Source of the DNA: Pseudomonas moorei
Lineage (GTDB): Bacteria; Pseudomonadota; Gammaproteobacteria; Pseudomonadales; Pseudomonadaceae
DNA length: 64,000 bases
Direction of reading: 5' to 3'
NCBI RefSeq assembly: GCF_008801475.1
Contig: NZ_VZPP01000002.1
Location: 434,001 to 498,000, forward strand
Positions 21,540 through 58,377 of this stretch are shown here, piece by piece. The stretch's first letter is position 1. Each line of letters starts with the position of its first letter. The notes under the pieces are model-generated. The model was not told the origin of the DNA. It made no database searches and saw only the letters and a program-made list of their open reading frames with translations. The position numbers and the translations under genes were made by a program.

Positions 21540-21547
21540 TGAATTTT

Positions 21548-22059: not shown

Positions 22060-22129
22060 AAAATAAATGAAAGAAGCCCACTCGCCTCACAGAATAGCTG
22101 CTTCCCAGTAGAGACGTGCTCACTTCAAC

Positions 22130-22280
22130 TGTTAGCGCTGATGCGATTTTGACCCAGGCTGCTGATTTTGCCTGACCTAAATTCGGCCTATGAATCTCGC
22201 GCCTAGACATCGTTTACTGATGTATTTAGGTGGGTTAACGATTTCCGGCAGCCTGGGTCAAAATCGCATCAGCGCCAACA
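22130..22280. mobile_element. 151-bp MITE-like element, copy 1
   Basis: Bounded by inverted repeats of more than 25 bp (TGTTRGCGCTGATGCGATTT at both termini, reading inward, continuing through TGACCCAGGCTG). A second copy of exactly the same length, in opposite orientation, lies at 39525-39675. It contains no gene and no flanking duplication is visible. Its right edge cuts tnsA of element A, so either its insertion or a deletion from it removed the rest of tnsABC. Confidence 0.75.
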
Positions 22281-22625
22281 CCCTAGCTCCTTCGCAATCT
22301 CCAAGGTTCCACTAACCGGTGCCAGATAGACACCTTTCATCAATGGATGCCCACGAAGTGGATGGCCTGACTTCAGAGGCCATAGCATTTTCTGCTCGTG
22401 AAGATCGAACAGATCAGGATGGTAAAGAGCCAACTGCGTAAACACCTTCTCAGGGGAGGAAAGCGCGTGCAATTCTCGACCGAGCTTGCGGCTGTTGAGT
22501 CTGCTGATACGGGATCCTTTCGGAGCCTCGCGTGGCATAGCCAGGGTCGAGGGGATGTATATGTCCCCCCATTCGAAGCTACTTTGACGGCTCAAGATGA
22601 GGGTTACTCGTTGTTCTGGTGTCAT
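22281..22625 (-). pseudogene. tnsA: tnsA remnant of element A (N-terminal third)
   Basis: Encodes the first 115 residues of a TnsA-type endonuclease, starting MTPEQR at 22625 as in the intact copy of element B. Shared segments include PREAPKGSRISRLNSRKLGR, FTQLALYHPDL and HEQKML. The frame breaks at the MITE right after LEIAKEL, before the catalytic Asp and Lys. Identity to the element B copy is high but clearly not complete. Confidence 0.85.
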
Positions 22626-23235
22626 ATATGCAATCCATTTTCTGGGCCTCAGAGCGTCATATTGATTGGGGATAAAACCTATAACGTCATGAAAACCCAC
22701 GTATTACGGGCTCGCGCGCGGACTAGCGCTGTGGATAACGCTAACTTTCCTGTGGACGAACGAAGCCGTGCGAGACTTGACGTCCCGCAGTTAGGAATAG
22801 AGAATGGATTGGTCAGCGTCCTAACCTGACTTATCCACAGGGGCCCAAGTTGGCGCTTGGGCTCCTGTCTCTTGGCTTCAAAAGTTTATTTTTATCAATA
22901 CATGTTAAGTATCCATTTAGCAGGTGTTAGTATTACTTCCGTGGCTAGCGGAAGTGCACGTCTAGTTCGTATGTCTCCCAAAAAAATGGCGAGATCATCG
23001 CAACCAAAAAAATGAAATATGTTAACGCCTGAAATTGTTGCGTGACAACAAAAAGAGTGGTGGCGTGGGGAGTTCGACGCCACGCTACCAGCTTTCCGAC
23101 TCCGAACAGGTGTGTCTTTTCAGGCGAATAGCGCGCAAGGAAATCAAAAAAGCTAGTTGTTATCGCTCGTTGTCATTTCCGGTAGGTTAGTAGGCTCATC
23201 TATCATACAGCCCGACCCGTTTGAGGGCTTGGGTG
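22626..23235. other. Divergent intergenic region tnsA'/tniQ of element A
   Basis: 610 bp with no convincing gene. It contains two GTGGATAA-like boxes and, at 22750-22875, a stretch that is clearly related to 44280-44395 of element B, ending in the hairpin listed separately. The last 300 bp before tniQ are AT-rich and should hold its promoter. Confidence 0.6.
22841..22864 (+). terminator. Conserved hairpin upstream of tniQ, element A
   Basis: GCCCAAG and CTTGGGC pair around six bases, followed by CTCCTGTCTC. The equivalent hairpin in element B is at 44367-44393. It sits about 370 bp before the tniQ start, so it could end a short upstream transcript or insulate tniQ. Confidence 0.5.
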
Positions 23236-24828: not shown

Positions 24829-24917
24829 TGGGCGCCTCATCATATTAAGCACCTGTCCGGAATCGTATCGCTACGGTGCGCTATTGGGGACCCTTGGCTA
24901 ATAAGATGAGTAGAACC

Positions 24918-26063
24918 CTATCCAAAAGCTTCCATTGGTTCGATACTCGGAATAGCGGGGTGTGGCGGATCAGCCAAGCTTGGAGCGAGTTGCCCTCTGC
25001 CTTTTTTTACATCAACAAACGAACAGCATGGATAGACTATCGAAATGCTTTTTTTAATGAAATCACCACGCCCAAACCCGAAAGATAAAGGTGATGGGTA
25101 TGGGCAATACCAGTTGCCAACTCCAAGCGAATAATCCTCGTCCACATAATGGGCAGACTCATGACCTCCGGCCCTGTATGTTGACCATAATGATGTGATG
25201 TCGCGTACTTCATCACAGGGCCCAATGACATCCGCGACAAACTCCTGAAATCCATCGTAAAGCATAGTTATAGAGTTAATAATACTGTCGAAATCGACAT
25301 ACTCAAAATAAAATGCAAGATTACTTTCAGCATGTATTTTCACTCGAGCCAGCTGAGTACTTATAATTCGCGAAATTTTTTGTAACTCCTCCTGGTTAGA
25401 TGTATTCGAAGGCATCTCTGACGGATCTGAAAAAAACCTAACTGACAGTGCTTCTAAGGCGGGTATTAATGATATATGAAATCGGCATTTGTATAAATCA
25501 TCGATTAACCGTGAGCGCTTTAGCTCCGCAAGGTCGTTGTTCACTCTTGAGTGGCTTTCGCTGAGATACTTTCCGCCACACCCCTCCCACATTACATTAC
25601 GACTATGTCCTTGAAAGGTAAATGGCTTATCGCAAGCAGGGCATACGGACTCTAAAATAACGTTATGAATTGCACATACGCCAACAGACTCTAGGGAGGC
25701 CCTGCGCCAATATGAAAAACCGACTTTCTCGAAATCAGACCTCACGCATTCAGGACAGAAGGTCAATCGCTTCGGAAAAGCAAGGTCTACATCTACGAAT
25801 TCAGCAATATATTTACTACCGGAATAAGCCATATCCTGTGAACTTTTTAATACTGAAAACAACGGTTGACAGGTGTGGTTATGCAATAGTCGGTTGAAAC
25901 CAGAGCATCCATGCCATCCTAATAATGATGCAACGTTTCTAACATCTTCGCTTGTGAGGCTCTTAGACGTATACCATTTTGGAAACCGGCCTTTGCCTAG
26001 AATAAAGATATTGCGTTCTATAAAGGAGTGAATTGTTTCATCTCGCTGGATACGTAGAAGCAT
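24918..26063 (-). CDS. Short second TniQ-family protein at the right end (element A)
   Basis: 381-residue protein with TniQ features: an N-terminal MLLRIQRDETIHSFIERN segment, two zinc-binding clusters (CPECV near residue 104 paired with CAIH; CPAC near 139 paired with a GCGG segment) and the KVGFSYWRRASLES core between them. It is much shorter than the TnsD-like protein and lacks its C-terminal HTH half. Homologue of the protein at 55329-56261 in element B: both have the FSYWRR/FSFWRR core, the same cysteine pattern, and the same place and direction next to the right end. It probably offers a second choice of target; which one is unknown. Confidence 0.75.
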   Translation of the reverse strand: MLLRIQRDETIHSFIERNIFILGKGRFPKWYTSKSLTSEDVRNVASLLGWHGCSGFNRLLHNHTCQPLFSVLKSSQDMAYSGSKYIAEFVDVDLAFPKRLTFCPECVRSDFEKVGFSYWRRASLESVGVCAIHNVILESVCPACDKPFTFQGHSRNVMWEGCGGKYLSESHSRVNNDLAELKRSRLIDDLYKCRFHISLIPALEALSVRFFSDPSEMPSNTSNQEELQKISRIISTQLARVKIHAESNLAFYFEYVDFDSIINSITMLYDGFQEFVADVIGPCDEVRDITSLWSTYRAGGHESAHYVDEDYSLGVGNWYCPYPSPLSFGFGRGDFIKKSISIVYPCCSFVDVKKGRGQLAPSLADPPHPAIPSIEPMEAFG

Positions 26064-26240
26064 TGTTAGAAGTCACTTTTATTTCATGCGCCAGTCGAAG
26101 AGCGTGGGGTATATATCAGAGCTCAAGGCCGAAGCTCCAACAACGGCCTCAATATCACGTCGCGACCTAGAATAGCCGATGAGGCTGCATCAGGTTCCCC
26201 AGCCTGCGACGTGATGTCCAAGTGATGAATGGCCGCATGG

Positions 26241-26283
26241 GACCGTTTTAATTCGCACGCGACCGTTTTAATTCTCAAAAACC
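26241..26283 (-). repeat. Right end of element A: two TnsB-type sites
   Basis: Two copies of GACCGTTTTAATTC start at 26241 and 26261, exactly 20 bp apart, then CAAAAACC at the terminus. They are the inverted form of the left-end sites (GAATTAAAACNGTC). Confidence 0.82.
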
Positions 26284-26288: not shown

Positions 26289-26295
26289 GAATTTA

Positions 26296-26424
26296 GAGAA
26301 TTAAAACTGTCGCGGGCATACCCGTATTTACACGCACAAATCCAATTACGGAGGAAACGCAAAACTGTCGCCCCCCCCCCAAAAACCGGTTTAGGCTTAC
26401 GCTCTAGAGAATTAAAACTGTCGC
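26296..26424 (+). repeat. Left end of element B: three TnsB-type binding sites
   Basis: GAGAATTAAAACTGTCGC ends at 26313, CGCAAAACTGTCGC ends at 26371, GAGAATTAAAACTGTCGC ends at 26424. The middle site runs directly into a tract of ten C residues (26371-26380). Confidence 0.85.
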
Positions 26425-29909: not shown

Positions 29910-30905
29910 TCACCTCTGCGGCTCGGAAGCTTCTCGGTATCGGTGCGTTTCCGATACGAAATCGATAAATGCCACTGCTGCGGCAACCGCAAGCCGAGCA
30001 TGCCTGGGCTGCACCTTGCCATGTCCGGTACCGTACAAACCTCTCAACTGCGTGAGATTGCTGGTCAACTGAGAGAGGTTGCGGAGGATATTCTTGATGT
30101 TTTCAGCGTCCTTAGCTACTTCACTGACTCCGTCGGGAACCAGCTGCAATGCTTTGGTGACCTTTTTCGTCAGATTGCCTAGGTCATCGGCCTTGGTGAA
30201 CGGAGTTTCTCGTTTCGTGAGAATGGACTTACAGCAGCTTTTTACCAGTTCTTTGGCCGTCCCGATCGCCAATTCGGGGTCTGAATCGACGGCATATTCC
30301 CGACGTTCAATTTGCTTCGCCATCGATCCGGCGCTCAGCGTCTCAACAACAACTCTCGCTCGCATGACCGACCTGGTTGCGTTCGCTTCTGTCGAAGCGC
30401 TGCTCATCAGCCGGTAGGAAAAGCGTGGGCGGCCGGCGATTTGCTGCTCTTGGTACAACTCCCAGCCAGCGTTCTGGAGTTGATCGTTGAAATGCTCAAC
30501 TAGCTTAATCGCTTCTTCTCGTTAGGGGCGAACCACGGGATGCACCGTTTCGCAGAGAAACCGGAGAAATGCCTCAGCGCTCCCATCGAAGAGATTGAGT
30601 CTGGAGTCGCTGAAGATCCAGTCATCGTTGTTATAGCGATGCTGCCAAATGTCGCCGACGACGTCTTTTTAGCGACTGTCCGTGGAGGGAAGGGTTTCAA
30701 GCTCGTACAGCCGACTCGGGAACTCAACATCATTGAGCTCCCCATACCACGGCACGTTCTCTAGACGTAGGCCGTCCGTGATGTTTTGCCGCACCGATTT
30801 CGGTAGGTTGGAAGACTTCCCGGAACGCCAATCCACTTGGTACTCACGTGCAGGCCCGATCAGCGCAAAGTACGCGTTGCTTTGCTCGTGCTCAGTTAAG
30901 GCACT
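29910..30905 (-). pseudogene. Abortive-infection (Abi C-terminal domain) gene with two in-frame TAA stops
   Basis: One frame runs from MSALTEHEQ at 30905 to the stop at 29910, interrupted twice by TAA: at 30669-30671 (after PSTDSR) and around 30523 (after HPVVRP). Between and after the stops the protein sense is preserved (DVVGDIWQHRYNNDDWIF; AFLRFLCETVHPVVRP; LVEHFNDQLQNAGWELY). The last 110 residues match the Abi_C domain: AKELVKSCCKSIL, ILRNLSQLTSNLTQLRGLYGTGHGK, and HARLAVAAAVAFIDFV. The intact protein would be about 330 residues. A TTG at 30458 could restart the C-terminal part alone. Confidence 0.78.
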
Positions 30906-35543: not shown

Positions 35544-37466
35544 ATGCATTTGAAGCGGATAAGGGCGTCAAATTTTCGTGCGTTTGGCGACGGTACGGTT
35601 GCCCCATCACTTGATTGGGAGCTTGCCCCAGGACTGAACATCCTTGTCGGGGAAAACGATTCCGGTAAAACCTCTGTAATCGACGCGATTCGCTACGTGC
35701 TGTGGACAACCAGCTACGAGTTCATTCGCCTCTTCGAAACTGACTTTCACATCACGGGCACGACACGAGCACGCTCTCTATTCATCGAAGCCACACTTGT
35801 GGACCTAGACCCCGAGCAAGAAGCCTCAGTTCTCGAATGGATGACCCACGAAGCAGACGGGTCTCATAGCTTGATCGTTTTTCTGCAGGCGCGTTGGGTA
35901 CCACCGAAGGCCAACAAACGTGGACGGGTCGAGGCAATTACCTGCTCGGGCCCGAACGGCACGGGGCCAGAGATCGGCACGGCGGTTCGCGAGCTCATCC
36001 GAGCCACCTACTTGCGCCCCCTTCGAGATGCCGAAGCCGAGTTGCGCCCTGGTCGCCAGTCTCGGCTGTCCCAAATTTTGGGCGCTCATAAACGCATTGA
36101 TGGGCAGGAGCAAAATGACTTCGACCTAGCGGCTCCTGCTACCGTCCCTAGCAACCTGGTAGGGCTGATGGCGTTTGCTCAGCATCACCTGGGCGAACAT
36201 CAGGTCATCAGAGACGTCCAGGACGACATCAACGACAACTACCTGAACAAGTTCGCGTTTGCCGGCGATGCTTTGTCCTCACGTATCCAGATCGCTCCGG
36301 AGCTGGGCCTGCAGCCCATTCTGGAGCGCTTCGAATTGGCGCTGCTGCCATCCTCCACCATCGATCCAGGTGAGCGGTGCATTCGCGGACTCGGCTATAA
36401 CAACGCTCTGTTCATGGCGACCGAACTGGTTCTGCTGCGGGACGGTGATGAACTCGGACTGCTGCTGATCGAGGAACCCGAGGCCCATCTCCATCCGCAA
36501 CTGCAGGAGCGCGTTCAGCTGCTCCTCGAACGCACCTCCAAAGCGGCGGAGCCAGATAGCCGCCCTGTTCAGATCATCATGACTACCCACAGCCCATCTC
36601 TGGCGGCGGGTGCGGACATCGCAAGTCTGACCTTGGTAAACCGTGCGCGACTATTCAGCTTGGCTCACGGGAAGACCAAATTGCTGAAAAGTGATTACGA
36701 GTTTTTGAGGCGCTTTATCGATGCCACCAAAGCGAATCTGTTCTTCGCTCGCGGCGTTGCGATCGTGGAAGGGCCAGCAGAAGCGCTGCTGCTGCCCGCT
36801 CTTGCTGCGGCTTCAGGATATTCGTTCAACGAATACGGCATTTCTTGCGTTAACGTCGGCGGAGTTGGGCTTTATCACTACGCGCGAATCTTGCAGCCGA
36901 TTGATGGCTCGGCGATTCCCATTCCTGTCGCCTGTATTACGGATCGTGACATCGTTCCCAATGAGGCCACCTACATATCTCCTCCCAAGAACAATCGTAA
37001 GCGATTCGAAAAAGACTACACGCCAGAGGAAGTCGAGGCACTGGTCAAAACGAAGGTCGACCGCGCCCAGGGTGGTAGCACAATTGTCTGCGTCTCCAAC
37101 AACTGGACGCTGGAATTCGATCTCGCCCTTCATGGATGTGCCCAGTTGATGCATGACGCAATTCACCTGGCGAAGAAGGCAGATTCGAGGGGTGAGCGGC
37201 TGACGGAGGAAGATGAGAAGAAGACGCTCGTCGATGCAGGCGAGCGTTGGAAAGAACTCTCGAACGCCGGACACTCGCCAGTGGAACTGGCGTCACTCAT
37301 TTACCAGCCGCTCGTTGAAAAAGAGGCATCAAAAGCGATCACAGCCCAATACGCTGCTCACCTGATTTCAACAGGCGACTATGGGAAAGGCGATGAGTTG
37401 TTCAACAAGCTGCCGCCTTACCTACAGCAGGCGCTACGACATCTGACTGGCAGGGCTAAGCCATGA
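35544..37466 (+). CDS. OLD-family ATP-dependent nuclease, Gabija GajA-like
   Basis: 640-residue protein. The ABC-type ATPase begins with HLKRIRASNFRAFGDG, Walker A GENDSGKTS near residue 36, and Walker B LLLIEEPEAHLHPQL near 305. The TOPRIM nuclease domain starts at VEGPAEALLLPAL near 408, with ITDRDIVPN near 466 as the acidic metal site. The stop overlaps the helicase start by four bases (ATGA). OLD class 2 proteins coupled to a UvrD-type helicase form the Gabija anti-phage system, in which GajA nicks DNA and GajB responds to DNA ends. Assignment to Gabija rests on architecture; sequence divergence was not measured. Confidence 0.8.
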   Translation: MHLKRIRASNFRAFGDGTVAPSLDWELAPGLNILVGENDSGKTSVIDAIRYVLWTTSYEFIRLFETDFHITGTTRARSLFIEATLVDLDPEQEASVLEWMTHEADGSHSLIVFLQARWVPPKANKRGRVEAITCSGPNGTGPEIGTAVRELIRATYLRPLRDAEAELRPGRQSRLSQILGAHKRIDGQEQNDFDLAAPATVPSNLVGLMAFAQHHLGEHQVIRDVQDDINDNYLNKFAFAGDALSSRIQIAPELGLQPILERFELALLPSSTIDPGERCIRGLGYNNALFMATELVLLRDGDELGLLLIEEPEAHLHPQLQERVQLLLERTSKAAEPDSRPVQIIMTTHSPSLAAGADIASLTLVNRARLFSLAHGKTKLLKSDYEFLRRFIDATKANLFFARGVAIVEGPAEALLLPALAAASGYSFNEYGISCVNVGGVGLYHYARILQPIDGSAIPIPVACITDRDIVPNEATYISPPKNNRKRFEKDYTPEEVEALVKTKVDRAQGGSTIVCVSNNWTLEFDLALHGCAQLMHDAIHLAKKADSRGERLTEEDEKKTLVDAGERWKELSNAGHSPVELASLIYQPLVEKEASKAITAQYAAHLISTGDYGKGDELFNKLPPYLQQALRHLTGRAKP

Positions 37467-39373
37467 CAGTCCCTGTGATCAATGCTGCCGACCTTGCGGC
37501 TCTACGCGAACTGACACCCGACTTGAACTTCGATGATCAAGAGCGGCGCGCCGTATTGCTGGAGAACCAGTCTCGTGACATCAACGCCGCGCCAGGCAGT
37601 GGCAAGACCACGGTACTAGCCGCGAAGCTCCTGATGCTGAGCCGCAGATGGACCTCAAGCCGCGCAGGCGTTTGTGTGCTCAGTCATACCAATGTCGCCC
37701 GTGATGAGATTCAACATCGGTTAGGTACAAGCCATGACGGGAGTCGCCTGCTCACACATCCCCACTTCATCGGGACGATTCACGCCATGGTGAATCAGTT
37801 TCTGGCTCTGCCCTATCTGCGAAGCAATGGGATGACTGTCGATGTGATCGACAACGATATCTTTGCTCGCCGAGCAGTGGCGTTAGCCCAAGCTAACTTT
37901 GGCTTGAAGCTTTATATGCAAAAGAATGCGAGCGTCGCGCCCATGCTAGAGGGGTTGGTGTACAAAGGTGCCTCACTGGACCTCGCCAGCGAGTTTGGCT
38001 CGCTTCCTAAACCAGGCGCGAAAACCCTTCCGACAATCGTCGGTATCAAAGAAAAACTCGCTGCTGAAGGGGTTTTCCGGCACGCGGACATGTTCGCGTA
38101 CGCAGAACGTTTGTTGACCCTTTTCCCTAAGGTTCGCACCCTGCTATCCAGACGGTTTCCTATCGTCTTCATCGACGAAATGCAGGACACGTCCTGGGAG
38201 CAAGAGCGTTTGTTGCAGCTGATGTTCGATGAGACCGTCACCATTCAGCGCTTCGGCGACATCAACCAGCGAATCCTTGGAAGCTCGGAAGGCGCGGAAA
38301 ACCTGACTTTCCCTCGAGGCGACGTACTTCCGATCTCCTCCAGCAAGCGCTTCGGTCCCCACATCGCTAAGTCCGTGTCTAGAGCACAGCTGGCAGGTAC
38401 CGCTGTTACCGGAGAGGGCGAAGACCGTCACGCGTCCATGCTGATCGTCTACAGCACCGGGCGAGTACAGGAAGTAATCTCGACGTTTGGAGACCATGTA
38501 CTAGACCGGTTCAGCGATACCGATCTTACTAGGGGAAAAGTCAAAGCCCTTTGCGCTCGCAAACAGGGCGATGCTCTAACACAGATAGCAGGCCGTACCC
38601 TCCTGGACTACTGGCCGGCTTCGGGTGGCGACCAATCACCCGGACTCAAGCTTGTGCGATTCTGGGCGCTTCTCGGGGGGCCCAAGCCTGCCGTAAACGC
38701 ATCGTTTTCATCACGATTTGAGGAGATCCGCAGAGCGCTGTTTCTGGTACTACGCGCGGCCAAGGCAGAGATTGTCGAAGGCTTGAAAACCGATCATCAG
38801 TTAATTCGAAAACTGCGTGATGCTGATGAAGATGTTTCAGCCTTCCGGCTACTGATTCGTGATCTGTGCATGAAAAACGTGAGCAATGCGGATGAAGCTA
38901 GGCGTATCCGCATCGTGAATTTTTTATACGTGAGGCTGCGCCCTTTGCTCCCAAATCACATGACACCACAGATATTCGCCGCGCTCCCGGTTTTTGAGCG
39001 ACCAGATGCCATGGCTATTAACGGAGCCCACCGGTCCATGTGCGCTATCGAAAAAAATGGTCGCAGCTTAGATATTCATATCGGCACCCTCGCCTCGATG
39101 AAAGGCGAAACGCATCTGGCAACACTCGTCATGGAGTCTCTAGGCCATCCAAGTCGTCGCTTCGACCTACAGCTGGCATTACCCATCATTGCTGGGATTG
39201 GCACTCGCTCCGGGAAAATGCCTGAGACTCAGCTTTCTCAATTTCGAAACCTATATGTCGGTATGTCGCGACCTACCAGCTTTCTGTGCTTGGCAGTCAA
39301 TGCAGAACGGGTTTCAGACGAGTGTAAAACGGCATTGACCGATCAAGGTTGGACCATCACCCATCTGCTATAG
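37463..39373 (+). CDS. UvrD/Rep-type superfamily 1 helicase, Gabija GajB-like
   Basis: 636-residue helicase coupled to the OLD nuclease gene. Motif I is NAAPGSGKTTVLAAKLL near residue 40, motif Ia VCVLSHTNVARDEI near 73, motif II FIDEMQDTSWEQE near 234, motif III FGDINQRIL near 270, and motif VI LYVGMSRPTSFL near 595. A conserved HIGTLASMKGETH segment (about 535) occupies motif V. Length is near that of GajB. It would act with the upstream protein in the cytoplasm against invading DNA. Confidence 0.8.
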   Translation: MTVPVINAADLAALRELTPDLNFDDQERRAVLLENQSRDINAAPGSGKTTVLAAKLLMLSRRWTSSRAGVCVLSHTNVARDEIQHRLGTSHDGSRLLTHPHFIGTIHAMVNQFLALPYLRSNGMTVDVIDNDIFARRAVALAQANFGLKLYMQKNASVAPMLEGLVYKGASLDLASEFGSLPKPGAKTLPTIVGIKEKLAAEGVFRHADMFAYAERLLTLFPKVRTLLSRRFPIVFIDEMQDTSWEQERLLQLMFDETVTIQRFGDINQRILGSSEGAENLTFPRGDVLPISSSKRFGPHIAKSVSRAQLAGTAVTGEGEDRHASMLIVYSTGRVQEVISTFGDHVLDRFSDTDLTRGKVKALCARKQGDALTQIAGRTLLDYWPASGGDQSPGLKLVRFWALLGGPKPAVNASFSSRFEEIRRALFLVLRAAKAEIVEGLKTDHQLIRKLRDADEDVSAFRLLIRDLCMKNVSNADEARRIRIVNFLYVRLRPLLPNHMTPQIFAALPVFERPDAMAINGAHRSMCAIEKNGRSLDIHIGTLASMKGETHLATLVMESLGHPSRRFDLQLALPIIAGIGTRSGKMPETQLSQFRNLYVGMSRPTSFLCLAVNAERVSDECKTALTDQGWTITHLL

Positions 39374-39524
39374 CAGGCCAGGGGTTCAGCCTTCAAGAAC
39401 GAGGGCTTGCTGACAGGCTTTGAGTCGTTAGCACTTCACCGTCCAGAGCTGTGACACCATCACTATCGCCACGCGTACCCGCGTAATCCACTTTAGCCAG
39501 TAAATCACTGATCGTTAGGCTGGT

Positions 39525-39675
39525 TGTTGGCGCTGATACGATTTTGACCCAGGCTGCCGGAAATCATTGACCCTCCCGAATACAGAGCAAACGATATCTT
39601 GGCGTGGGATTTCAGAGGCCGATTTTAGGTCACCCAAAATCAGCAGCCTGGGTCAAAATCACATCAGCGCCAACA
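39525..39675. mobile_element. 151-bp MITE-like element, copy 2
   Basis: Same length and near-identical terminal inverted repeats as 22130-22280, in the opposite orientation; the interior is clearly related but diverged. It lies between the Gabija helicase and the 3' end of tnsC. The remainder of 39374-39843 shows no gene. Confidence 0.75.
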
Positions 39676-39843: not shown

Positions 39844-41190
39844 TTACCTCGGCTTCTTAGGCTTAGCAGTACCCATTGATTCGAGGACCTGTTCGAAAGC
39901 GTTTGCCAGATCTGTCTCCGACGCTTGGGGCACCCGAGGTCGGCGCGGAACTTTAGGTGATCGAGTGGCTTTGGATGCTTCCGGTTCGATGTGCTCCATA
40001 GCAGAACGCTCGCTTTCATTGAGGGACGAATGGAAAACCTTGTTGATGACTCGATTAACTCGATCGGTACGCGCAAACTTTACGACTTTTGACCTCAGGT
40101 CACTTGGTAGCTCAAAAGGGCAACGCAGATCCATCCGACTCCCTGTTGTACGGTTTTGAAGTGCCTGCAGGTGTAACTCTTCCACATCTTTTTGGTTGGT
40201 TGCGTAGGCTGGCGAGCGGTATGCACGAGTAATATCGTTGATGTCTATGCACAAACGACCAGATGATCGAGCTTCTATATATGCAAGCTTTATCAGCTGA
40301 ACGACAAGCCGCTTAATACCAAAGGTAGATCTATATATCTCATTCACGAGATCATCAAGCGGTGCCTGAATATGGCCAGCACTGACCCTGACGCACTCAG
40401 CGACATAAGTTCGCCAATCCAAGCCGTCCGGAGCATCCGGCAGCATAATTCGCGGCTCTGAAAGCAAACGTTGCTTGTCCTCGCTGTTCCGACCGAGCAG
40501 CTTATGCACCAGACTGTAGTTAGAGACGTATATCATCGGCGGACCGATCGCCGCCATCGTCAACAGAATGTCGGTAACCTTAGAAGCGCCCTGGCCTGTA
40601 TTAATATGCTGGGTTTCCTCTAATATCAACATTGAAACACCGTCTCTATTTACACGCCGGCGACACTCAATTAACAGCTTTGCAGAGTTATAACTGGATC
40701 TTTGTTGTCCATCTAACACAAAATCTGCAAGCAACTGTCGACCCCCGGCTTTCCCTCTGGCACTTGCATACCAGTAAGAGACCAATTGGAGCGTTCCCTC
40801 GAAGTGGTCACACGTGAAGCCAAGAGGTGGCGGTAGAACTTTCCGTAAAGCGGTAATAGTCTGGCTTTTGCCAATGCCTGCTAAGCCTGTTAGACAAACA
40901 GGTGCAACCTCCACATCCGGAGGGTTGTAAACTCGGGAAAGGTACGCAGTCTGGCTCTCGAACAGCTTTCGACTGTACAGTGACGCCCGGGCCACCATCT
41001 CCTTAATAAATTCTAGAGAAAACTCATTCGGTAAATAGATTTGTCTTAGAGCATCAGCAAGGACCTCTGCCCCCATCAAAGCATCCAGACTACCTAAAGC
41101 CTGGACCGGGGCGGGACTGACCGTGACCCTCTCACGGATCTGTTCAATGTCGGAGCATCCATCGAACCGAGCGAGAATTCTCTCATTCAT
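39844..41190 (-). CDS. tnsC: TnsC-like AAA+ ATPase (element B)
   Basis: 448-residue ATP-dependent regulator that links target selectors (TniQ proteins) to the TnsAB transposase. Walker A GLAGIGKSQT is near residue 107 and Walker B MLILEETQHI near 188, with a sensor-like IYVSNYSL near 222. The C-terminal tail is Pro/Arg/Lys-rich (SPKVPRRPRVPQ), a likely contact with TnsA or TnsB. It overlaps the tnsB stop by 8 bp. Confidence 0.9.
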   Translation of the reverse strand: MNERILARFDGCSDIEQIRERVTVSPAPVQALGSLDALMGAEVLADALRQIYLPNEFSLEFIKEMVARASLYSRKLFESQTAYLSRVYNPPDVEVAPVCLTGLAGIGKSQTITALRKVLPPPLGFTCDHFEGTLQLVSYWYASARGKAGGRQLLADFVLDGQQRSSYNSAKLLIECRRRVNRDGVSMLILEETQHINTGQGASKVTDILLTMAAIGPPMIYVSNYSLVHKLLGRNSEDKQRLLSEPRIMLPDAPDGLDWRTYVAECVRVSAGHIQAPLDDLVNEIYRSTFGIKRLVVQLIKLAYIEARSSGRLCIDINDITRAYRSPAYATNQKDVEELHLQALQNRTTGSRMDLRCPFELPSDLRSKVVKFARTDRVNRVINKVFHSSLNESERSAMEHIEPEASKATRSPKVPRRPRVPQASETDLANAFEQVLESMGTAKPKKPR

Positions 41191-43195
41191 TTCGCTGCCC
41201 TCTAAAACGATTGTAGTCCGCTATATCGCGCTGCGCTGGCGCTCCCTTACCCGCTCGACCGAGCTTACGTACCCCACTGCCCCATTCTTCTCCAGTATTT
41301 CTATTGAATCTGTCTATATACTCCTGCTGCATAGCCGGCCTTTCTTCCCTAAGTGCGGCTGCGCCTGCACGACGCATCGTATCGATCTCTTTTAGGTCTT
41401 GCAGGGATATATCAATGCTACCAGGCAAGGTACTCGCGGAGCGGACAATATCCAATTCAAACAGTACCCCTTCTACTTCAACCCATATATGCCGTACACA
41501 CATGGTCATAGCGAAAGCTGTAATCTTGATTGCACCATTCCTGGCAACCCGATCAAATACCCGAGTATTCATCAGTGCTTGAGATCTATATTTTCGTCCA
41601 TAAAAATAAACGGCGTCTTTCTGTATCATAGCGGAATGCTGTGTAAGGAAAGTTCTCACTGCCGTATCAAATGGCATTCCAATAGAGCTGTTCCTACAGC
41701 GACTATCTAAATAATTCCAAATGTTGTGAGGTGTCGGCTTGAAACCAGTCAGCAACATCTCCTCCGACATACGACGCCCAGCATCAGAGGTGTGGTTGTC
41801 CCATAGAACCTGAAAAATTTCACGCTTGGCCATTTCGACGAAATTAAGCTTGCTGTGGAAGTATGTTGGTTGTTCAAAGCTCTTTTTATCCCTCGGGTGG
41901 GAAGATTCAACAGTGGCCTTGGACTGCCCAGAATAAACCGGTGTCAACTCAAAACTCCCCAGCCAATTTATCTCAGGCTCGCATTTTAACCCTGCTCCTG
42001 GGCCTCTATCGAAAACGACACCTCCAGAAAGGCCGACACATGGCCACTCGCCTGGCTTGATCTCCATGCCGAATAGCTCGCCAAACCTCACCTTATCTAC
42101 TGCCATTGAAAACAGAGCCATCCTATAGGCAGCCATATTCTCCTTCCCTTCCGAGAATCCTATGCCAACCACCGCTCCGGATAGACCGCATACAGCACGC
42201 ACGACGCAAAAGCTATCCACGGCGCTACCCTCTGTAAGGCCAGTTAGCTTCTCCGAGATGTAATAGCCGTCGAACTCTACGCGCTGGTTCACATTGGTCA
42301 ATCGCTCAGAAAAACTCCCCTGCGAGCCCGATTGCGCACGCTTTTTGTGCGCTCCTTTCAACTCGCGTGCAAGCGCATCTGGACTGATCATTTTCTTCAG
42401 CCAGTATTTGAACTGCACCTGAGACGGAAAAGGCTGGCCTTCCGGGTGACCGAACACTCTAGTGCCGTCCTTCTTAATATGGACAACACACTTAAACTCC
42501 CTAGTAAGAACGACGTTGTATAGGCTCTCTTGCGTCTTGTATGAGGATTTAAATTTCAGAAATCCAGAAAGAATCTTTTCCTTCATGTCTGCCGTGACGG
42601 GATACCCAAATTTACGTCCTTTTGAAGATGGTCTACCTAGTTTCCGCACGCGAGAAGGATCACCCCGATTCCAACCACCTATTCGGTGAAATTTTGGTAG
42701 TAGAGCCCATTTGTTATGGCCGAAAATAATGTAACTGTAAAACCAAAATCTAAGTCGCCCAGCATTTTGCTGGGGGCGTTGACTCTTAGCGTGAGCATTG
42801 ATTATGGCGTTTGGGTTATCACTCGCCAAGATCTCTAAAAAACGACTTACCAATTCCGCAATAGCCATATACCGGCGATCAACTTTTTGGTCATAGCTCT
42901 CTTTCTTCGATCTCCGCAGACTTTCAAGATGTGGAATAGCAACACCCTGTACGGGCTCGAGCCAAGGTGGATAGATCCCGCTAGAATTGTCACAAATCAG
43001 CAAGTCATTCTCGAGTGCCTCCTCAAACTCTACTGCTGATATTGTAACGAGCTGAGCACTGACATCATTCCCATCATCGGCGAAAAGAATGAGCCTAACT
43101 CGGTTTCGAGCCGAGTCACTCTGCAGAAAATGATATACGGCTCCTTTTGATAGACAGAGGAACCCCTCTGGAGCGATTACACGCCCGCCAATCAT
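41183..43195 (-). CDS. tnsB: TnsB-like DDE transposase (element B)
   Basis: 670-residue transposase that binds the end sites and joins the 3' ends to target DNA. The catalytic triad is visible as D in VEFDGYYI near residue 307, D in VVFDRGPGAG near 393, and E in ATVESSHP near 429. The C-terminal beta-barrel region contains MCVRHIWVEVEGVLFEL. The start is the ATG at 43195 inside the TGATG overlap with tnsA; a GTG at 43198 is possible. Middle gene of tnsABC. Confidence 0.9.
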   Translation of the reverse strand: MIGGRVIAPEGFLCLSKGAVYHFLQSDSARNRVRLILFADDGNDVSAQLVTISAVEFEEALENDLLICDNSSGIYPPWLEPVQGVAIPHLESLRRSKKESYDQKVDRRYMAIAELVSRFLEILASDNPNAIINAHAKSQRPQQNAGRLRFWFYSYIIFGHNKWALLPKFHRIGGWNRGDPSRVRKLGRPSSKGRKFGYPVTADMKEKILSGFLKFKSSYKTQESLYNVVLTREFKCVVHIKKDGTRVFGHPEGQPFPSQVQFKYWLKKMISPDALARELKGAHKKRAQSGSQGSFSERLTNVNQRVEFDGYYISEKLTGLTEGSAVDSFCVVRAVCGLSGAVVGIGFSEGKENMAAYRMALFSMAVDKVRFGELFGMEIKPGEWPCVGLSGGVVFDRGPGAGLKCEPEINWLGSFELTPVYSGQSKATVESSHPRDKKSFEQPTYFHSKLNFVEMAKREIFQVLWDNHTSDAGRRMSEEMLLTGFKPTPHNIWNYLDSRCRNSSIGMPFDTAVRTFLTQHSAMIQKDAVYFYGRKYRSQALMNTRVFDRVARNGAIKITAFAMTMCVRHIWVEVEGVLFELDIVRSASTLPGSIDISLQDLKEIDTMRRAGAAALREERPAMQQEYIDRFNRNTGEEWGSGVRKLGRAGKGAPAQRDIADYNRFRGQRNE

Positions 43196-44157
43196 CACTT
43201 TTCTGACTCCTCAAAAAGCGTTCCATAGACAGAGAGCAGATCTTGCTGTTCGCTAGTTAACGGATGATCGATGAGTATTGGTTCGAATAGATTTACTAGA
43301 AGTTTGCGGTTCCAGACATCTTGGTAGAACCTAGCAATAAATTGATCGCGATTGCCCCAGCGTGCTCCATATCTAATCATGACCTGCGCTACCGGGTATC
43401 CCGCTTTAACAGCTTCCTGAATATCACAACTGAATTCCTCAAACAATTCCAGGCTATGCGTGGCAGGTAAGTCGTGCATGGAAAATAGTAAATCCAGATT
43501 TGCTATTACCGCTGATTCTATTAAATCTAAAGAAACCTGCACTGTTCTTATCCCGGCGCTGGAATAGTATTCTTTCTCCAGTTTGGCTCTAAGCTGGGCG
43601 TGCTCTCGGTCTTTTCTCTGCTGTACCGGTGTTTTGACACTGGATCTTCTTCTCTCAGTAAATGATTCTATTTTATCCTTTACCGACCAGTTCACTGCAT
43701 AGGGAATTCCATCATGTCCTTTCATGTACAACAAAAGATCGCCCTGGTACGGGTAAGGAACTTTATGCCGATTACCTTCCTCGTTATCAATGGCGATTTC
43801 ATAATGTTTAAATCCTATTTCAGTCGCGATTTCTAATGTCCCACGCAGAGGGTTAGGAAATGTGCCTTTGATCAACGGGTGACCACGAAGGGGATGCCCT
43901 GTAGTAACAGGCGAAAGCATCTTCTGCTCATGTATATCGAGCAAATCAGGATGATAAAGCGCGAGTTGCGTAAACACCCGCTCTGGTGTGGACAGCGTAT
44001 GTAAGGTGCGGCCGAGTTTCCGACTGTTCAACCTACTAATACGAGAACCTTTAGGAGCTTCCCTAGGTACCGCCATCGTAGACGGGACATACACATCTCC
44101 CCATTTGAAACGGGCTTGGCGGCTCACTATCAGTCCAAATTTTTGCTGCGGTGTCAT
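43195..44157 (-). CDS. tnsA: TnsA-like endonuclease (element B)
   Basis: 320-residue endonuclease that cuts the 5' ends so that the element moves by cut and paste, unlike TnsA-less relatives that form cointegrates. It has the PD-(D/E)XK pattern of TnsA: Glu in DIHEQKM near residue 77, Asp in GDLLLYM near 138, and Lys in WSVKDK near 157. The C-terminal domain (from about 180) should contact TnsC. First gene of tnsABC, divergent from tniQ. The N-terminal third is closely matched by the remnant in element A. Confidence 0.9.
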   Translation of the reverse strand: MTPQQKFGLIVSRQARFKWGDVYVPSTMAVPREAPKGSRISRLNSRKLGRTLHTLSTPERVFTQLALYHPDLLDIHEQKMLSPVTTGHPLRGHPLIKGTFPNPLRGTLEIATEIGFKHYEIAIDNEEGNRHKVPYPYQGDLLLYMKGHDGIPYAVNWSVKDKIESFTERRRSSVKTPVQQRKDREHAQLRAKLEKEYYSSAGIRTVQVSLDLIESAVIANLDLLFSMHDLPATHSLELFEEFSCDIQEAVKAGYPVAQVMIRYGARWGNRDQFIARFYQDVWNRKLLVNLFEPILIDHPLTSEQQDLLSVYGTLFEESEK

Positions 44158-44366
44158 TTTTGCATTCCAATGTCCTTGAGCCTTTCACCCAGTAGCCAGG
44201 AAATCACTAGGAGAAGACCGCATACTTCAAAAAGCAGGCACACTTAGGCCTCGCTATTCACGACAAGTACTTTTCTCGGGATGAGCGGAGCCGCGCAGGG
44301 CTTGACGCCTTACGCGAAGGGGATAGACAATGGATTTGTCAGGGACGAAAATCTGACATATCCACG

Positions 44367-44899: not shown

Positions 44900-46525
44900 A
44901 TGAACCTCGCATCAGCCGGCTATCTAGATCAACAGTTGAACGTAACTTTGCGCTGGCTTGAGGATGAAACATTTTTCAGCCTTTGCAGCCGTCATCACTT
45001 CTTTAATGGCCAATTGGCTTCCGCGATGACATCCATGCGGCTAACGAACCCCTCCCCACTCAAAATTAAACATGACTTTCCATATAACCTAGATACTCTT
45101 GATGAACAATTGCTATCCGCATGGGGAAATCCGGAGACTATCATCTCTAAACACACAATACTTCCAATGTTTTTCCCTTTTCAGTCGGATTCGAATATCA
45201 ACGCTGCTATTTTGGCATTGCATAGTTCAAAGCTTGGCTCGATTAAATACTGTCTAGGCCTCATCACAAGTCGCTTTGGTGCAGAGCACCCCTTGAAGGC
45301 ATGTCGGGCATGCATAAAAGCCGATGCCGCAGCTTATGGGGTTTCCTACTGGCACCTTACTCATCAGTATCCAGGCGTCATAGTGTGTCCAGTCCACCGT
45401 AAGATGCTAATGGAGAGTCATCACAATCGCAGATGGTCTGCGCGTTTTAGTTGGGTTCTACCAAGCCAAGACTCATTAACTGATCACTTAGAAACTGTGT
45501 TCGAATCTAGAACTCAGGATTTACTTGTACAATTGGCAACGGCCGTAATTGAACTTGCAGCTCTCGGACTGCACCGGCGCTTTGACCTTCAGCTTGTGAA
45601 AACTGTCTACCGAAATGCATTAGGCCGATTTTGCAGTTCCGGGCAAAATTTGAAGAGCATTGCCTCTTCCCTATCCCACCTTACTTCACTGCTCCAGCCT
45701 TATCATCCGCTCACATGTCTTCCAACGACAGCGGAAGGTGCAGCTTCCTACATTGAGCAACTAACCCGCAGCCCGCGAGGGCATTGCCATCCGTTGAAAC
45801 ACTTGATCATGATTATCTGGCTTTTCGGCGATATGGACTCGTTTGTGGAAGCCTACGATCACCAAGAAGCTAAGGAAGGCCAAGCGGTATTAACCATTGG
45901 CGGAAGGGACAGGATTTCACCGGGAACTGAACGTATACCGGAAAAATCTTTGGCGCAAAAGAGTATACGCAGGCCAAAAGTGCTAAAGCCCCGTCTCCGC
46001 ATTCAAATATTGGAGCGTTTGGCAGCTGGCAAGCCGAAGACTCAAGTTTGCTCAGAGTTCGAGATTTCTATATCTACTGTAAATAGATTACTTCGTGAAG
46101 AGCCTTTGGTAGAACGCTCATGGGCTGAAATTCAGCGCAAATCTGCATTGATTCAGCATCGAAAAAATTGGATGGCTACAGTTAAAGAAACCACACACCC
46201 TAGCGCTAAGACTGTCCGCGCTCGCACCCCTGAGCTTTATGCATGGCTCTATAGAAACGATAAAGCCTGGCTTCTCTCGCAAACTACTAAATTACCTTCC
46301 GGTCGGATTGGAAATAATTCGCGTATCGATTGGGAGGCACGGGATGTAGACTTAGAAATATTCATTAGAAAATCCCTGATTGAAAAGTTTGGAAGCGATA
46401 AAAACCTTAGATTAGATAATTTTGAGATCTTCTCCTTAGCTCCGACCCTATCATCTTGTTTAGAAAATAGAAGTCGATACCCTCGTACCCGCGCGTTGAT
46501 TTCACTAATAAAAAAGAACAGTTAA
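44900..46525 (+). CDS. tniQ: TnsD-like TniQ target-selection protein (element B)
   Basis: 541-residue TniQ-family protein, homologous to 23236-24828 over its whole length (shared LEDETFFSLCSRHH-type start, RFGAEHPLKAC, HLTHQYPGV). Zinc ligands are CRACIKAD near residue 136 and CPVHRKM near 163. The C-terminal half carries an HTH (CSEFEISISTVNRLL) and RARTPELYAWLYRNDKAWL. By size and by the position of the element it should bind the 3' end of glmS and direct insertion 24 bp beyond it. Confidence 0.9.
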   Translation: MNLASAGYLDQQLNVTLRWLEDETFFSLCSRHHFFNGQLASAMTSMRLTNPSPLKIKHDFPYNLDTLDEQLLSAWGNPETIISKHTILPMFFPFQSDSNINAAILALHSSKLGSIKYCLGLITSRFGAEHPLKACRACIKADAAAYGVSYWHLTHQYPGVIVCPVHRKMLMESHHNRRWSARFSWVLPSQDSLTDHLETVFESRTQDLLVQLATAVIELAALGLHRRFDLQLVKTVYRNALGRFCSSGQNLKSIASSLSHLTSLLQPYHPLTCLPTTAEGAASYIEQLTRSPRGHCHPLKHLIMIIWLFGDMDSFVEAYDHQEAKEGQAVLTIGGRDRISPGTERIPEKSLAQKSIRRPKVLKPRLRIQILERLAAGKPKTQVCSEFEISISTVNRLLREEPLVERSWAEIQRKSALIQHRKNWMATVKETTHPSAKTVRARTPELYAWLYRNDKAWLLSQTTKLPSGRIGNNSRIDWEARDVDLEIFIRKSLIEKFGSDKNLRLDNFEIFSLAPTLSSCLENRSRYPRTRALISLIKKNS

Positions 46526-55328: not shown

Positions 55329-56261
55329 CTAACTAACAAGGCTCGCACGTTTCTCTGTCATACTTTCGAACTGTAGCGACTTTTTTTCCAAGATATATTT
55401 GAAGGAGCGGATAAACTCTTCAAAGTCTGCGAACAACAAAAATATAAGTGTAGCGACAATGTAACAACACACCCTAAGATGTTCCGGCCCAAAGCTTAGA
55501 TATGTTTTGATTTCATAGTGCAAATCAGATTTTGTCCAAGGAAACAAAACACGATCAAAACGAGAGTCAGTCACTTCATTCCACAGTTCTTTATATCGCT
55601 CATTACAATTTAGAGCGATTAAAAAAGATTCATAGGCGATTACGCAATCAAGTTTACGGTCAAAATTCAATATAGCTGCATTAAGTTTTGATCTTTTGAA
55701 CTCCAAACTGCATTCATTGATCTCTGTTTCCGACTCTAGGATATACCTGCCGCATTTACAACCACTCCACAATACATTGAGGCAGTGATTTTCTACGCGA
55801 AAAGCACGATCACAGAATTGGCACTTCTTGAGTAATTTTACGTTATGTGTAGCGCAGACATTAATTTCATTTTGATGACTTCGCCTCCAAAAAGAGAAAC
55901 CTACTCGTTCAATATCATCCTTTACACATTCGAGACATATAGCAACATTTTTACCCTTAGTAACATAACCAAAGTCACAGTTGCTCTTTTCTAGAAACCT
56001 GTGTCTCAAAAGCATAGATTCGACATCATCAACGATTAGACGATAACTAAAATAAACAGTGTGCTGCTGAACTAGCTTAATGAATCCGGCAAAGTGATGC
56101 CAGCTCATTAGATCTGCGACCAATATTAAGTCTTTGATCGACCATTCATCACCTTGCAATGACTTAAAAGGATCTTCGACTTCAAATTTATCTTTTAAAA
56201 ACAGCCTATTTCTTGAGATGTAAGAATCTAATGCCTCATCGGTTTGTATTTTTAAAAGCAT
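55329..56261 (-). CDS. Short second TniQ-family protein at the right end (element B)
   Basis: 310-residue protein; the start at 56261 (MLLKIQTDEALDSYISRN) aligns with the homologue in element A, an upstream ATG at 56270 is possible. Zinc clusters: CLECVKDD near 115 with CATHNV near 138, and CQFCDRAF near 150 with a GCKCG segment. Core VGFSFWRRSHQNE is shared with element A. The gene is AT-rich and sits 214 bp inside the right terminus, transcribed inward. Position, direction and zinc pattern are the same in both elements although everything between differs, so this second TniQ is a standard part of this transposon type. Confidence 0.75.
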   Translation of the reverse strand: MLLKIQTDEALDSYISRNRLFLKDKFEVEDPFKSLQGDEWSIKDLILVADLMSWHHFAGFIKLVQQHTVYFSYRLIVDDVESMLLRHRFLEKSNCDFGYVTKGKNVAICLECVKDDIERVGFSFWRRSHQNEINVCATHNVKLLKKCQFCDRAFRVENHCLNVLWSGCKCGRYILESETEINECSLEFKRSKLNAAILNFDRKLDCVIAYESFLIALNCNERYKELWNEVTDSRFDRVLFPWTKSDLHYEIKTYLSFGPEHLRVCCYIVATLIFLLFADFEEFIRSFKYILEKKSLQFESMTEKRASLVS

Positions 56262-56474: not shown

Positions 56475-56520
56475 GCGACAGTTTTTATTGTTCCGCGACA
56501 GTTTTTATTGTCTAAAACCA
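56475..56520 (-). repeat. Right end of element B: two TnsB-type sites
   Basis: GCGACAGTTTTTATTG occurs at 56475 and 56495, exactly 20 bp apart, then TCTAAAACCA at the terminus. Read inward from glmS it is GACAATAAAAACTGTCGC starting eight or nine bases in, the Tn7 layout. Confidence 0.88.
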
Positions 56521-56525: not shown

Positions 56526-56580
56526 TCGATCAGCTGTGGATAACTTATTCCACAGTCACCGATTTCGCCAGGTTGCGTGG
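56526..56580 (-). other. attTn7 recognition region at the end of glmS
   Basis: Tn7 TnsD binds the last codons of glmS and inserts about 25 bp past the stop. Here the end of glmS ([10 protein letters not shown]) is intact and the insertion is 24 bp past the stop. Confidence 0.8.
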
Positions 56581-58377
56581 CTGGTCAACGTCGGTGCCTT
56601 TCAGCACAGCCACGTAGTACGACAGCAGCTGCAGCGGGATGGTGTAGAGGATCGGCGACAGGATGTCGTGGATGTGCGGCATATGCACAACGTGCGTGCC
56701 TTCACCATTGGTCATGCCAGCCTGCTCGTCGGCGAAGACAATCAGCTCGCCACCACGGGCGCGGACTTCCTGAAGGTTGGACTTCAGTTTTTCCAGCAGC
56801 TCATTGTTCGGCGCAACGGTTACGACTGGCATGTCGTTATCCACAAGCGCCAACGGACCGTGCTTCAGCTCGCCAGCCGGATAAGCCTCGGCGTGAATGT
56901 AGGAAATCTCCTTGAGCTTGAGCGCCCCTTCCATCGCAACCGGGAATTGCGCACCACGTCCGAGGAACAGGGTGTGATTTTTTTCGGCGAACAACTCAGC
57001 GATTTTCTCCACGGTGCTGTCCATGGCCAGCGCTTCACCGAGGCGGGTTGGCAAGCGACGCAACTCTTCGACCAGCGTTGCTTCAACGCTTTTGCTCAGC
57101 GTGCCGCGCACCTGCCCCAGAGACAGGGTCAACAACAGCAATCCAACCAATTGCGTGGTGAAAGCTTTGGTCGAGGCCACGCCGATTTCGCGACCGGCCT
57201 GGGTCAGCAAGGTCAGATCGGATTCTCGCACCAGCGAGCTGATGCCGACGTTACAGATTGCCAGGCTGGCGAGGAATCCCAATTCCTTGGCGTTGCGCAG
57301 CGCGGCCAGAGTGTCGGCGGTTTCGCCGGATTGGGAGATGGTCACGAACAGTGTGTCCGGCTGTACCACTACCTTGCGGTAGCGGAATTCACTGGCAACT
57401 TCGACCTGGCACGGAATGCCAGCCAGCTCTTCCAGCCAGTAACGAGCGACCATCCCTGCGTGATAGCTGGTGCCGCAGGCGACGATCTGTACGTTGCGTA
57501 CTTTGGCGAACAGCTCGGCCGCTTGTGGACCGAAGGCCTGCACCAGGACTTGAGTTTGGCTCAGGCGCCCTTCCAGGGTTCGCTGTACAACAGACGGTTG
57601 CTCATGGATTTCCTTGAGCATGAAATGACGGAACTCACCCTTATCGGCCGCTTCTGCGCCATCACGGTACTGGACGGCTTCGCGCTCGACCGCCTTGCCG
57701 TCAACGTCCCAGATATGCACGCTGTCGCGACGAATTTCGGCGATATCGCCTTCTTCCAGGTACATGAAGCGGTCGGTGACCTGGCGTAACGCCAACTGGT
57801 CGGACGCGAGGAAGTTTTCACCCAGCCCCAGACCGATCACCAATGGGCTGCCACTGCGGGCAGCGACCAGGCGATCTGGCTGCCGAGCACTGATCACTGC
57901 CAGGCCGTACGCACCGTGCAACTCTTTGACAGTTGCCTTGAGGGCTGCGGTCAGGTCTTCCAGGTCCTTGAGTTTGTGGTCCAGCAGGTGGGCGATGACC
58001 TCGGTGTCGGTGTCCGAAGTGAAGGTGTAACCCAAGGCTTTGAGCTGTTCACGCAGGGCTTCGTGGTTTTCGATGATGCCGTTGTGCACCACCGCCAGGT
58101 CGCCGGAAAAATGCGGGTGCGCATTACGCTCACACGGGGCGCCATGAGTCGCCCAACGTGTGTGGGCGATACCCAAACGACCAACCAGCGGCGCTTCGGC
58201 CAGGGCCAGATCCAGCTCACTGACTTTGCCCGGGCGACGCAGGCGTTCCAGTTTTGCGTCATTGGTGTAGACCGCCACACCGGCGCTGTCATACCCACGG
58301 TATTCCAGACGCTTCAGGCCTTCGACCAGGATGGCGGTGATGTTACGTTCTGCGACGGCGCCGACAATTCCACACAT
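56545..58377 (-). CDS. glmS: Glutamine-fructose-6-phosphate aminotransferase
   Basis: Makes glucosamine-6-phosphate from fructose-6-phosphate and glutamine, first step to UDP-GlcNAc for peptidoglycan and LPS. 610 residues. The N-terminal nucleophile Cys follows Met (MCGIVGAV), with the RGYDSAG and HTRWATHG motifs of the glutaminase domain; two SIS isomerase domains follow ([38 protein letters not shown]). It starts one base after the stop of the DeoR-type regulator gene, with AGGAGAA inside that gene. Its own terminator was separated from it by the Tn7-like insertions. Confidence 0.97.

Follow-up and report, generated by a model that had tools for sequence, protein, structure and literature searches.

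One Tn7-like element of Pseudomonas, about 35 kb long and carrying TnsABCD together with a short TniQ protein, occurs practically unchanged at glmS and in two plasmid backbones. We lean towards the view that the short TniQ of this lineage, which is also encoded in both Tn7-like elements of the Pseudomonas moorei DNA analysed here, acts in Pseudomonas Tn7-like elements as a second selector of targets, or as the part of such a selector that the transposon contributes.

Two tandem Tn7-like elements downstream of glmS

In the window, by which we mean the whole 64,000-nt stretch of P. moorei DNA that was analysed, two Tn7-like elements, A (21540–26283) and B (26289–56520), were identified in tandem downstream of glmS (56545–58377, minus strand), the chromosomal attachment gene that served as the reference for the insertion sites of relatives. 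The left end of element A (21546–21678) has three GAATTAAAACTGTCGC-like repeats, and three repeats were also found in that of element B (26292–26424). Each right end (26234–26280 in A and 56477–56520 in B) has two repeats 20 bp apart, those of B at 56477–56510, and the right end of B lies 24 bp from the glmS stop codon. AGGGT is present at all three junctions in the window (21535, 26284 and 56521), which is compatible with 5-bp duplications, though the end positions differ by a base.

Element B consists of its left end, cargo, the tnsCBA genes (39844–44157, minus strand), tnsD, further genes, the short tniQ and the right end. Its TnsD (44900–46525, plus strand, 541 aa) and that of element A (23221–24828, plus strand, 535 aa) both combine a TniQ domain with the TnsD domain PF15978 (E 1.3e-31 and 1.6e-35, respectively). 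TnsC (39844–41190, minus strand) was assigned from gene order and an AAA domain (E 7e-4, below the Pfam cut-off), TnsB (41183–43198, minus strand) from conserved order and from tblastn hits on plasmid genes with a transposase annotation, in one case that of Tn7 TnsB, and TnsA (43195–44157, minus strand) from order, size and conservation in relatives; no Pfam or NCBIfam model matched TnsA or TnsB at E 0.01. With TnsA and TnsB named in this way, the layout is that of attTn7 elements, with tnsABC and tniQ/tnsD genes between end repeats.

The short tniQ of element B (55329–56261, minus strand) encodes 310 aa from an ATG, with an in-frame GTG 9 bases upstream, and is separated from tnsD by 8.8 kb; in 16 of 30 named relatives this distance is at most 1.5 kb. 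Its counterpart in element A (24918–26063, minus strand) encodes 381 aa. The preliminary description had placed a TnsD-size gene and a short TniQ-like gene in each element, the short one pointing inward beside the right end, and the ORFs, Pfam matches and end repeats agree with this. It had also stated that element A lost tnsBC and kept both tniQ genes. Both parts stand, with the correction that about 300 bp from the 5′ part of tnsA (22333–22632, minus strand, 71% DNA identity to 43865–44164) remain as well, so that the loss comprises tnsB, tnsC and most of tnsA. Since only the ends, the tnsA remnant, TnsD and the short TniQ are kept, element A is a shrunken element.

Element B has a Gabija defence pair in its cargo at 35544–39373 (GajA, E 2.8e-218; GajB, E 4.1e-229), and an Abi_C/AbiJ-like ORF lies at 29910–30458. 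A unit of about 150 bp with 33-bp inverted arms (GCAGCCTGGGTCAAAATCGCATCAGCGCCAACA) occurs once per element (22130–22283 and 39522–39675), on the left-end side of the tns genes, and looks like a small mobile repeat or a terminator. No Rfam RNA was detected at gathering thresholds in the window, in 7 loci of relatives or in 3 plasmid or right-end loci, and no tRNA in the window or the 7 relatives' loci.

The short protein is a TniQ with a predicted TnsC-facing fold

Pfam TniQ (PF06527) matched the short protein of element B at E 6.7e-6 (27.2 bits, with a cut-off of 27) and that of element A at E 4.4e-5 (24.6 bits, slightly under the cut-off of 27), and no NCBIfam model names either of them. The two are 32% identical (E 3.2e-33), and the Pfam model matched 22 of 23 relatives (E 0.001). 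Across the 23 aligned short TniQs, W165 is invariant, as is a zinc-binding Cys/His pattern (C109, C112, C136, H139, C147, C150 and C168), so by sequence the zinc-binding pattern of the TniQ core is present. A profile of the short TniQs matched the Tn7 TnsD chains in PDB at 5.8e-6. Membership in the TniQ family, for which an HMM search had been proposed, is supported by the Pfam match of the B protein at the cut-off and by this profile match.

The AlphaFold2 single-chain model of the B protein, predicted from a small alignment of 23 sequences, had a mean pLDDT of 80.9 and a pTM of 0.81. Its best match among solved structures was TnsD(1–318) in complex with TnsC (Z 15.9, rmsd 4.1, 259 residues aligned); the top 18 rows of this comparison were all TniQ or TnsD, and the next row was unrelated (Z 4.1). 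In Foldseek, TniQ/TnsD entries made up the top 16 rows, and E was 0.001 or better for 4 of these. A missing TniQ fold had been named as grounds for rejecting the preliminary description, and the prediction returned that fold. PF15978, the DNA-binding half of TnsD, matched neither short protein, and the 310-aa model aligned to TnsD(1–318) only. The B protein is thus predicted to be the TnsC-binding half of TnsD without the DNA-binding half; TnsC binding by the short TniQ would follow from this model, and a protein of this kind probably needs a partner. Longer relatives (about 370–410 aa) have an extra C-terminal stretch that contains Cys residues.

Short TniQs form a conserved and probably old lineage

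A search of genome contigs with the TnsB alignment yielded 40 loci, of which 30 were from Pseudomonas (48–67% TnsB identity) and 10 were distant loci of other taxa (27–38%). The short TniQ alone as query gave no match in genome contigs, and no TnsB relative was found in the viral contigs searched. Of the 30 Pseudomonas genomes that have this TnsB, 29 also have a strong short TniQ, within the locus in 21 and elsewhere in the genome in 8 (L117 in G002, L120 in G180, L115, L130, L146, L114, L116, with one in-frame stop, and L140); L124 had a weak 277-aa match only (E 1.1e-12). In a sample of 298 Pseudomonas genomes, the window's short TniQ matched 50 and TnsB 51 at E 0.001, counts that include weak matches to distant Tn7-like elements.

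In the phylogeny that the preliminary description had called for, a branch with 98/94 support separated the 23 Pseudomonas short TniQs from all TnsDs. The second TniQs of the distant taxa grouped with the short TniQs (100/99, midpoint root), which suggests, at the level of sequence, that the short TniQ/TnsD pair stems from an old split rather than a local duplication. For the short tniQ, dN/dS was 0.16–0.29 in 12 of 15 pairs, two of which share one sequence under two names; of the other three, two were saturated and one was identical. By this measure of sequence divergence, the short tniQ is under purifying selection.

The same hosts and plasmids also harbour a second, distant Tn7-like class, whose TnsB is 22–27% identical where matched and whose members have two TniQ/TnsD-type genes each (L180 1744–9916, L094 6005–14950, L099 8048–14059 and L112 from 43042).

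The short tniQ is exchanged as a module

The short tniQ has been swapped between elements independently of tnsD. G119 and G031 have TnsDs and TnsBs that are 97% identical and short TniQs that are 74% identical, and their synonymous divergence is 0.02 for tnsA, 0.03 for tnsD, 0.13 for tnsB, 0.23 for tnsC and 0.57 for the short tniQ. G292 and its group share 88–94% of TnsB and 76–81% of TnsD, with short TniQs that are 25–26% identical (30–31% pairwise). In the tree, the TnsDs of element A and L118 are sisters (path 0.23), and their short TniQs are 1.9 apart. In L126, L127 and L129 (equated with L282, L083 and L079, respectively), the tns genes are inverted with respect to the short tniQ, which stays beside the glmS-proximal end.

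As homing to glmS is unchanged by such swaps, they argue against the short TniQ as the glmS selector. They also bear on the possibility that the short TniQ is an obligatory co-selector with TnsD at glmS and that plasmid insertions are rare accidents. In its favour, a short TniQ is present in 19 of the 19 glmS-inserted elements among the 30 named loci, a count that is partly circular because the site was often recognised by the short tniQ and its end, and TnsD and the short TniQ are just the two proteins that element A retained when it shrank. Yet very different short TniQs all occur at glmS, and in the G119–G031 pair the exchange left homing as it was. Tn7 TnsD is not known to need a second TniQ at glmS, which counts against this reading too, and the same element at the same motif distance on two plasmid backbones, as described below, is not the pattern of an accident. 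We hold an obligatory co-selector to be improbable.

Relatives are inserted at glmS, elsewhere and on plasmids

Insertion sites were assigned for the 30 named Pseudomonas loci. In 17 of them, it is the right end, carrying the short tniQ, that lies at glmS; these include L115 and L146, in which tnsABCD is on another contig and the link is inferred. Two more, L132 (equated with G292) and L138, are inverted at glmS, with the left end adjoining the gene. These inverted insertions are seen at L096 2440–2700 with L088 10600–10760, and at L176 859–971; the first is flanked by a short duplication (AAACT or AAAAC). An earlier idea that G292 had been driven from glmS by a foreign short TniQ was dropped when the extended contig showed the inverted glmS insertion. 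That the short TniQ sets the orientation was ruled out as well, as the short TniQ of the inverted L138 is 88% identical to that of the normally oriented G057.

In L130, about 42 kb of one contig separate the right end from glmS, where a different Tn7-like element occupies the attachment site. Nine of the 30 loci lie away from glmS (L114, L116, L121, L123, L124, L125, L137, L140 and L149), and L135, the remaining locus, falls in none of these site classes. In the nine, glmS is on another contig, except in L124 (about 96 kb away), and no end repeats of this kind were recognised beside it. The glmS site is occupied by another Tn7-like element in the case of L125, and 5.4 kb of other DNA lie between glmS and its usual neighbour in that of L124. 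Among the right flanks, that of L121 matches plasmid NZ_MN310372.1 at 99.6% identity, that of L123 matches Pseudomonas megaplasmids at about 73%, and that of L125 matches, at about 77%, a metal cluster that occurs on Pseudomonas plasmids. The other six non-glmS insertions (L114, L116, L124, L137, L140 and L149) were not placed on plasmids; the gene content of L140 suggests a chromosomal location, and end-type repeats that belong to another element lie beyond the right end of L137. 

AATAAAGGTTGTCAC repeats, which resemble the ends of another element type, were also seen within about 200 bp past the right end in L065 upstream of 8524 (G038) and in L081 upstream of 8751 (G149). The right end of G038 lies away from glmS, and in this genome glmS is directly followed by its downstream neighbour LysR.

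Among PLSDB records, this TnsB was found at more than 55% identity in two, CP027478.1 and NZ_CP087161.1, each with a short tniQ at the right end. In CP027478.1, the short tniQ is broken into two frames, and so is tnsC. The second target pathway of the preliminary description is borne out as far as the lineage occurs in plasmids and the survey of non-glmS sites goes; the short TniQ rather than TnsD may be what chooses the plasmids.

One element at glmS and in two plasmid backbones

G057 has its element at glmS, and NZ_CP087161.1, a conjugative plasmid (MOBF, MPF_F), has one that is 99.96–99.98% identical over a 9.3-kb core and 99.99–100% identical over the 24 kb reaching to the left end; in the plasmid copy, tnsB contains an IS5-family gene. 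The L121 element, on a 93.5-kb contig of P. capeferrum, has an identical short TniQ, TnsA and TnsB, is 100% identical over the 17,094-bp left half, and its tnsD is interrupted. On both sides it is flanked by DNA matching p716811-VIM, which is also conjugative and belongs to the same plasmid family. The L121 flank is present in NZ_CP087161.1 too, about 100 kb or more from the insertion there, so that the two are insertions at different places. Empty sites were found in pSTY (NC_022739.1) and p716811-VIM (NZ_MN310372.1), and comparison with them gave the target duplications ACAGA and AGCGC for the two plasmid insertions, with an uncertainty of one base at the ends. Among 398 genomes, three more G057-type right ends were found (G025, G076 and G081); they are all at glmS and add no plasmid site. 

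The inner region of the G057-type right end (L111 11664–11919, query positions 120–375) is 74–89% alike in dozens of Pseudomonas genomes and gave no Rfam match.

Two plasmid insertions lie at a fixed distance from a repeated motif

The right end of G057 lies 26 bp past the glmS stop codon, and the right ends at the two plasmid sites lie 27 and 26 bp from a promoter-like motif of about 22 bp that is close to TTATGCGTACGYGTTATGTATC. When the two plasmid sites were aligned with a one-base shift, 7 of 26 positions agreed in the spacer, 19 of 24 in the motif and 3 of 30 beyond it. NZ_CP087161.1 contains 21 copies of the motif at up to 4 mismatches, 20 of them outside the element, compared with 0 in the reversed sequence, and all 11 copies in the 49 kb for which gene positions were checked are intergenic. 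A flank scan blind to the motif peaked at the same place, with 22 further copies; among 150 random plasmid windows used as control, the 99th percentile was 6 and the maximum 23, and at least one was repeated as often as the insertion-site window (22).

The chance of an insertion 25–28 bp from a copy with the right end facing it is 1.1e-4 for any plasmid site and 1.6e-3 when limited to the gene-free DNA of the motif-rich 49 kb, figures in which one of the two insertions serves as the definition, as the distance was taken from these same two. The rule is drawn from two insertions of one element type. Beside P19E3 p1 (398 of 468 kb used) and the P. arcuscaelestis megaplasmid-like contig (L123), where the short TniQs are others, no repeated motif was found, and no copy lies within 30 kb of the second Tn7-like element on NZ_CP087161.1 (TniQ gene from 121041).

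A copy of the motif is also present in the tnsA–tnsD intergenic region of 4 of 31 elements, namely the G057/L121 type, L138, L118 and element A of the window (22892–22913, plus strand, 5 mismatches, 24.0 bits), and is absent from the other 27. These copies score 20–27 bits, and none of 60 shuffles scored as high. The tnsA–tnsD regions of L130, L131 and L137 have in common, at offset 269, a GCGTTAAGTAAC-containing site that is reminiscent of the tail of the plasmid motif.

Perhaps TnsD makes both kinds of insertion, the plasmid sites being relaxed TnsD sites, and the short TniQ tunes TnsD/TnsC as an inhibitor or by setting a balance. The glmS and plasmid sites do share the 26–27 bp geometry. 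The glmS 3′ end agrees with the motif at 9–10 of 24 positions, one of the plasmid sites giving the 10 (P 0.057), and the TniQ of the type I-D CAST CyCAST lowers TnsD homing from 0.008% to 0.0006% (PMC10293859). However, the plasmid motif is a repeated plasmid element and is not significantly like glmS, and TnsDs as similar as those of the G292 group accompanying short TniQs as dissimilar as theirs would be odd for a co-evolved modulator. We think it rather unlikely that TnsD serves both sites.

Relation to known targeting systems

The dual TniQ–TnsD architecture and the idea of targeting through a small TniQ are already known in principle. Faure et al. 2023 (PMC10293859) counted 2,905 loci that have a single tniQ/tnsD gene and 1,048 that have at least two. 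They proposed that TnsD provides direct targeting and that a small TniQ acts as an adaptor for another selector in an indirect one; in the accessible part of that paper, this role in dual elements was tested within CASTs and Tn6022 only. Like those dual transposons, the Pseudomonas elements have one long TnsD and one short TniQ each. No target outside CASTs is given in that part of the paper, whereas natural sites and a plasmid motif are available here, and the Pseudomonas pairs seem to come from an old split common with beta-proteobacterial relatives and not from recent duplication in situ.

In CASTs (types I-B1, I-B2, I-D and dual I-F3), a short TniQ core connects TnsC with an external DNA-binding module, and a TnsD for homing is present as well; in contrast, no Cas domain was detected among the 19 window proteins scanned with Pfam, a set that excluded the small ORFs and the histidine kinase. 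The TniQ of Tn5053/Tn402 directs insertion into res sites, common on plasmids, according to the available text of a 2024 review that also describes the two-pathway lifestyle (PMC11406308); unlike Tn5053/Tn402, the Pseudomonas elements also have TnsD. Tn6022 uses a short TniQ as an adaptor with a separate DNA-binding selector, TnsF, whereas the compact Pseudomonas elements leave no room for another gene beside the short tniQ.

With Tn7 (TnsABC, TnsD and TnsE), the Pseudomonas elements have in common the glmS attachment site, ordered end repeats, the 5-bp duplication and life on plasmids. They differ in having a second TniQ and no TnsE that was found: none is annotated in NZ_CP087161.1 78000–125000, the stretch that spans the element, and TnsE_C (PF18623) matched 0 of 11 genomes or records, with the control genomes equally silent. 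Benler et al. 2021 (PMC8649781) described plasmid insertions without an identifiable tnsE and, in the text available, left open how such elements reach plasmids, naming unknown plasmid selectors and trans-acting TnsE among the proposed causes.

Another factor, either an unrecognised gene of the element or TnsE in trans, could accordingly select the plasmids, with the short TniQ in some other role. The silence of the TnsE_C search in the control genomes leaves space for it, and the conservation comparison covered the genes from tnsC to the right end. In the compact L073 and L125, on the other hand, the short tniQ, tnsD, tnsA, tnsB and tnsC fill the stretch from the right end to tnsC, except for a gap of about 600 bp that separates tnsD from tnsA. 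According to PMC10293859, TnsE targets DNA irrespective of sequence, unlike the two plasmid insertions of one element type at a fixed motif distance. We find selection by another factor very doubtful. The literature covered, which includes few subscription papers, contained, as judged by title and start of abstract, no report of the Pseudomonas pair or of a plasmid motif at fixed distance.

A possible second route to plasmids

We return to the short TniQ as a second selector. TnsD would bring TnsABC to glmS and anchor the element there, and the short TniQ would recruit the same TnsABC, docking TnsC at other DNA, chiefly plasmids. The short TniQ may recognise DNA some 26 bp away from where the element inserts, either by itself or via a protein bound there; in one element type this DNA would be the promoter-like motif repeated about 20 times in the plasmid, with a geometry as at glmS. 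DNA-bound partners are to be expected, since the short TniQ has the TnsC-facing core only, and both the motif and its glmS-like spacing would be accounted for if a regulator of the plasmid were bound to the motif copies; such a motif-binding partner is a putative one.

A more specific version, which we put forward only tentatively, is that the short TniQ is a plasmid-homing selector that reads sequence and not replication structure, docks the transposase at a promoter or operator motif that the plasmid itself has in many copies, either directly or by way of the plasmid regulator on it, inserts 26–27 bp from there and is module-swapped for each plasmid family. If this is true, the different exchanged short TniQs would be keyed to different plasmid families, TnsD would keep the glmS anchor, and the element would track its vehicles by swapping the short tniQ; the motif in the tnsA–tnsD promoter region of some elements might then serve to sense the plasmid. 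The element at glmS, the two motif-bearing plasmid sites, the empty sites and the duplications make up a defined set of substrates for testing how elements without an identifiable tnsE reach plasmids and what the small TniQ of dual elements does. Reading of the motif through TniQ, if confirmed, would be a protein-guided, sequence-specific pathway to plasmids, and the lineage may be a source of swappable insertion modules.
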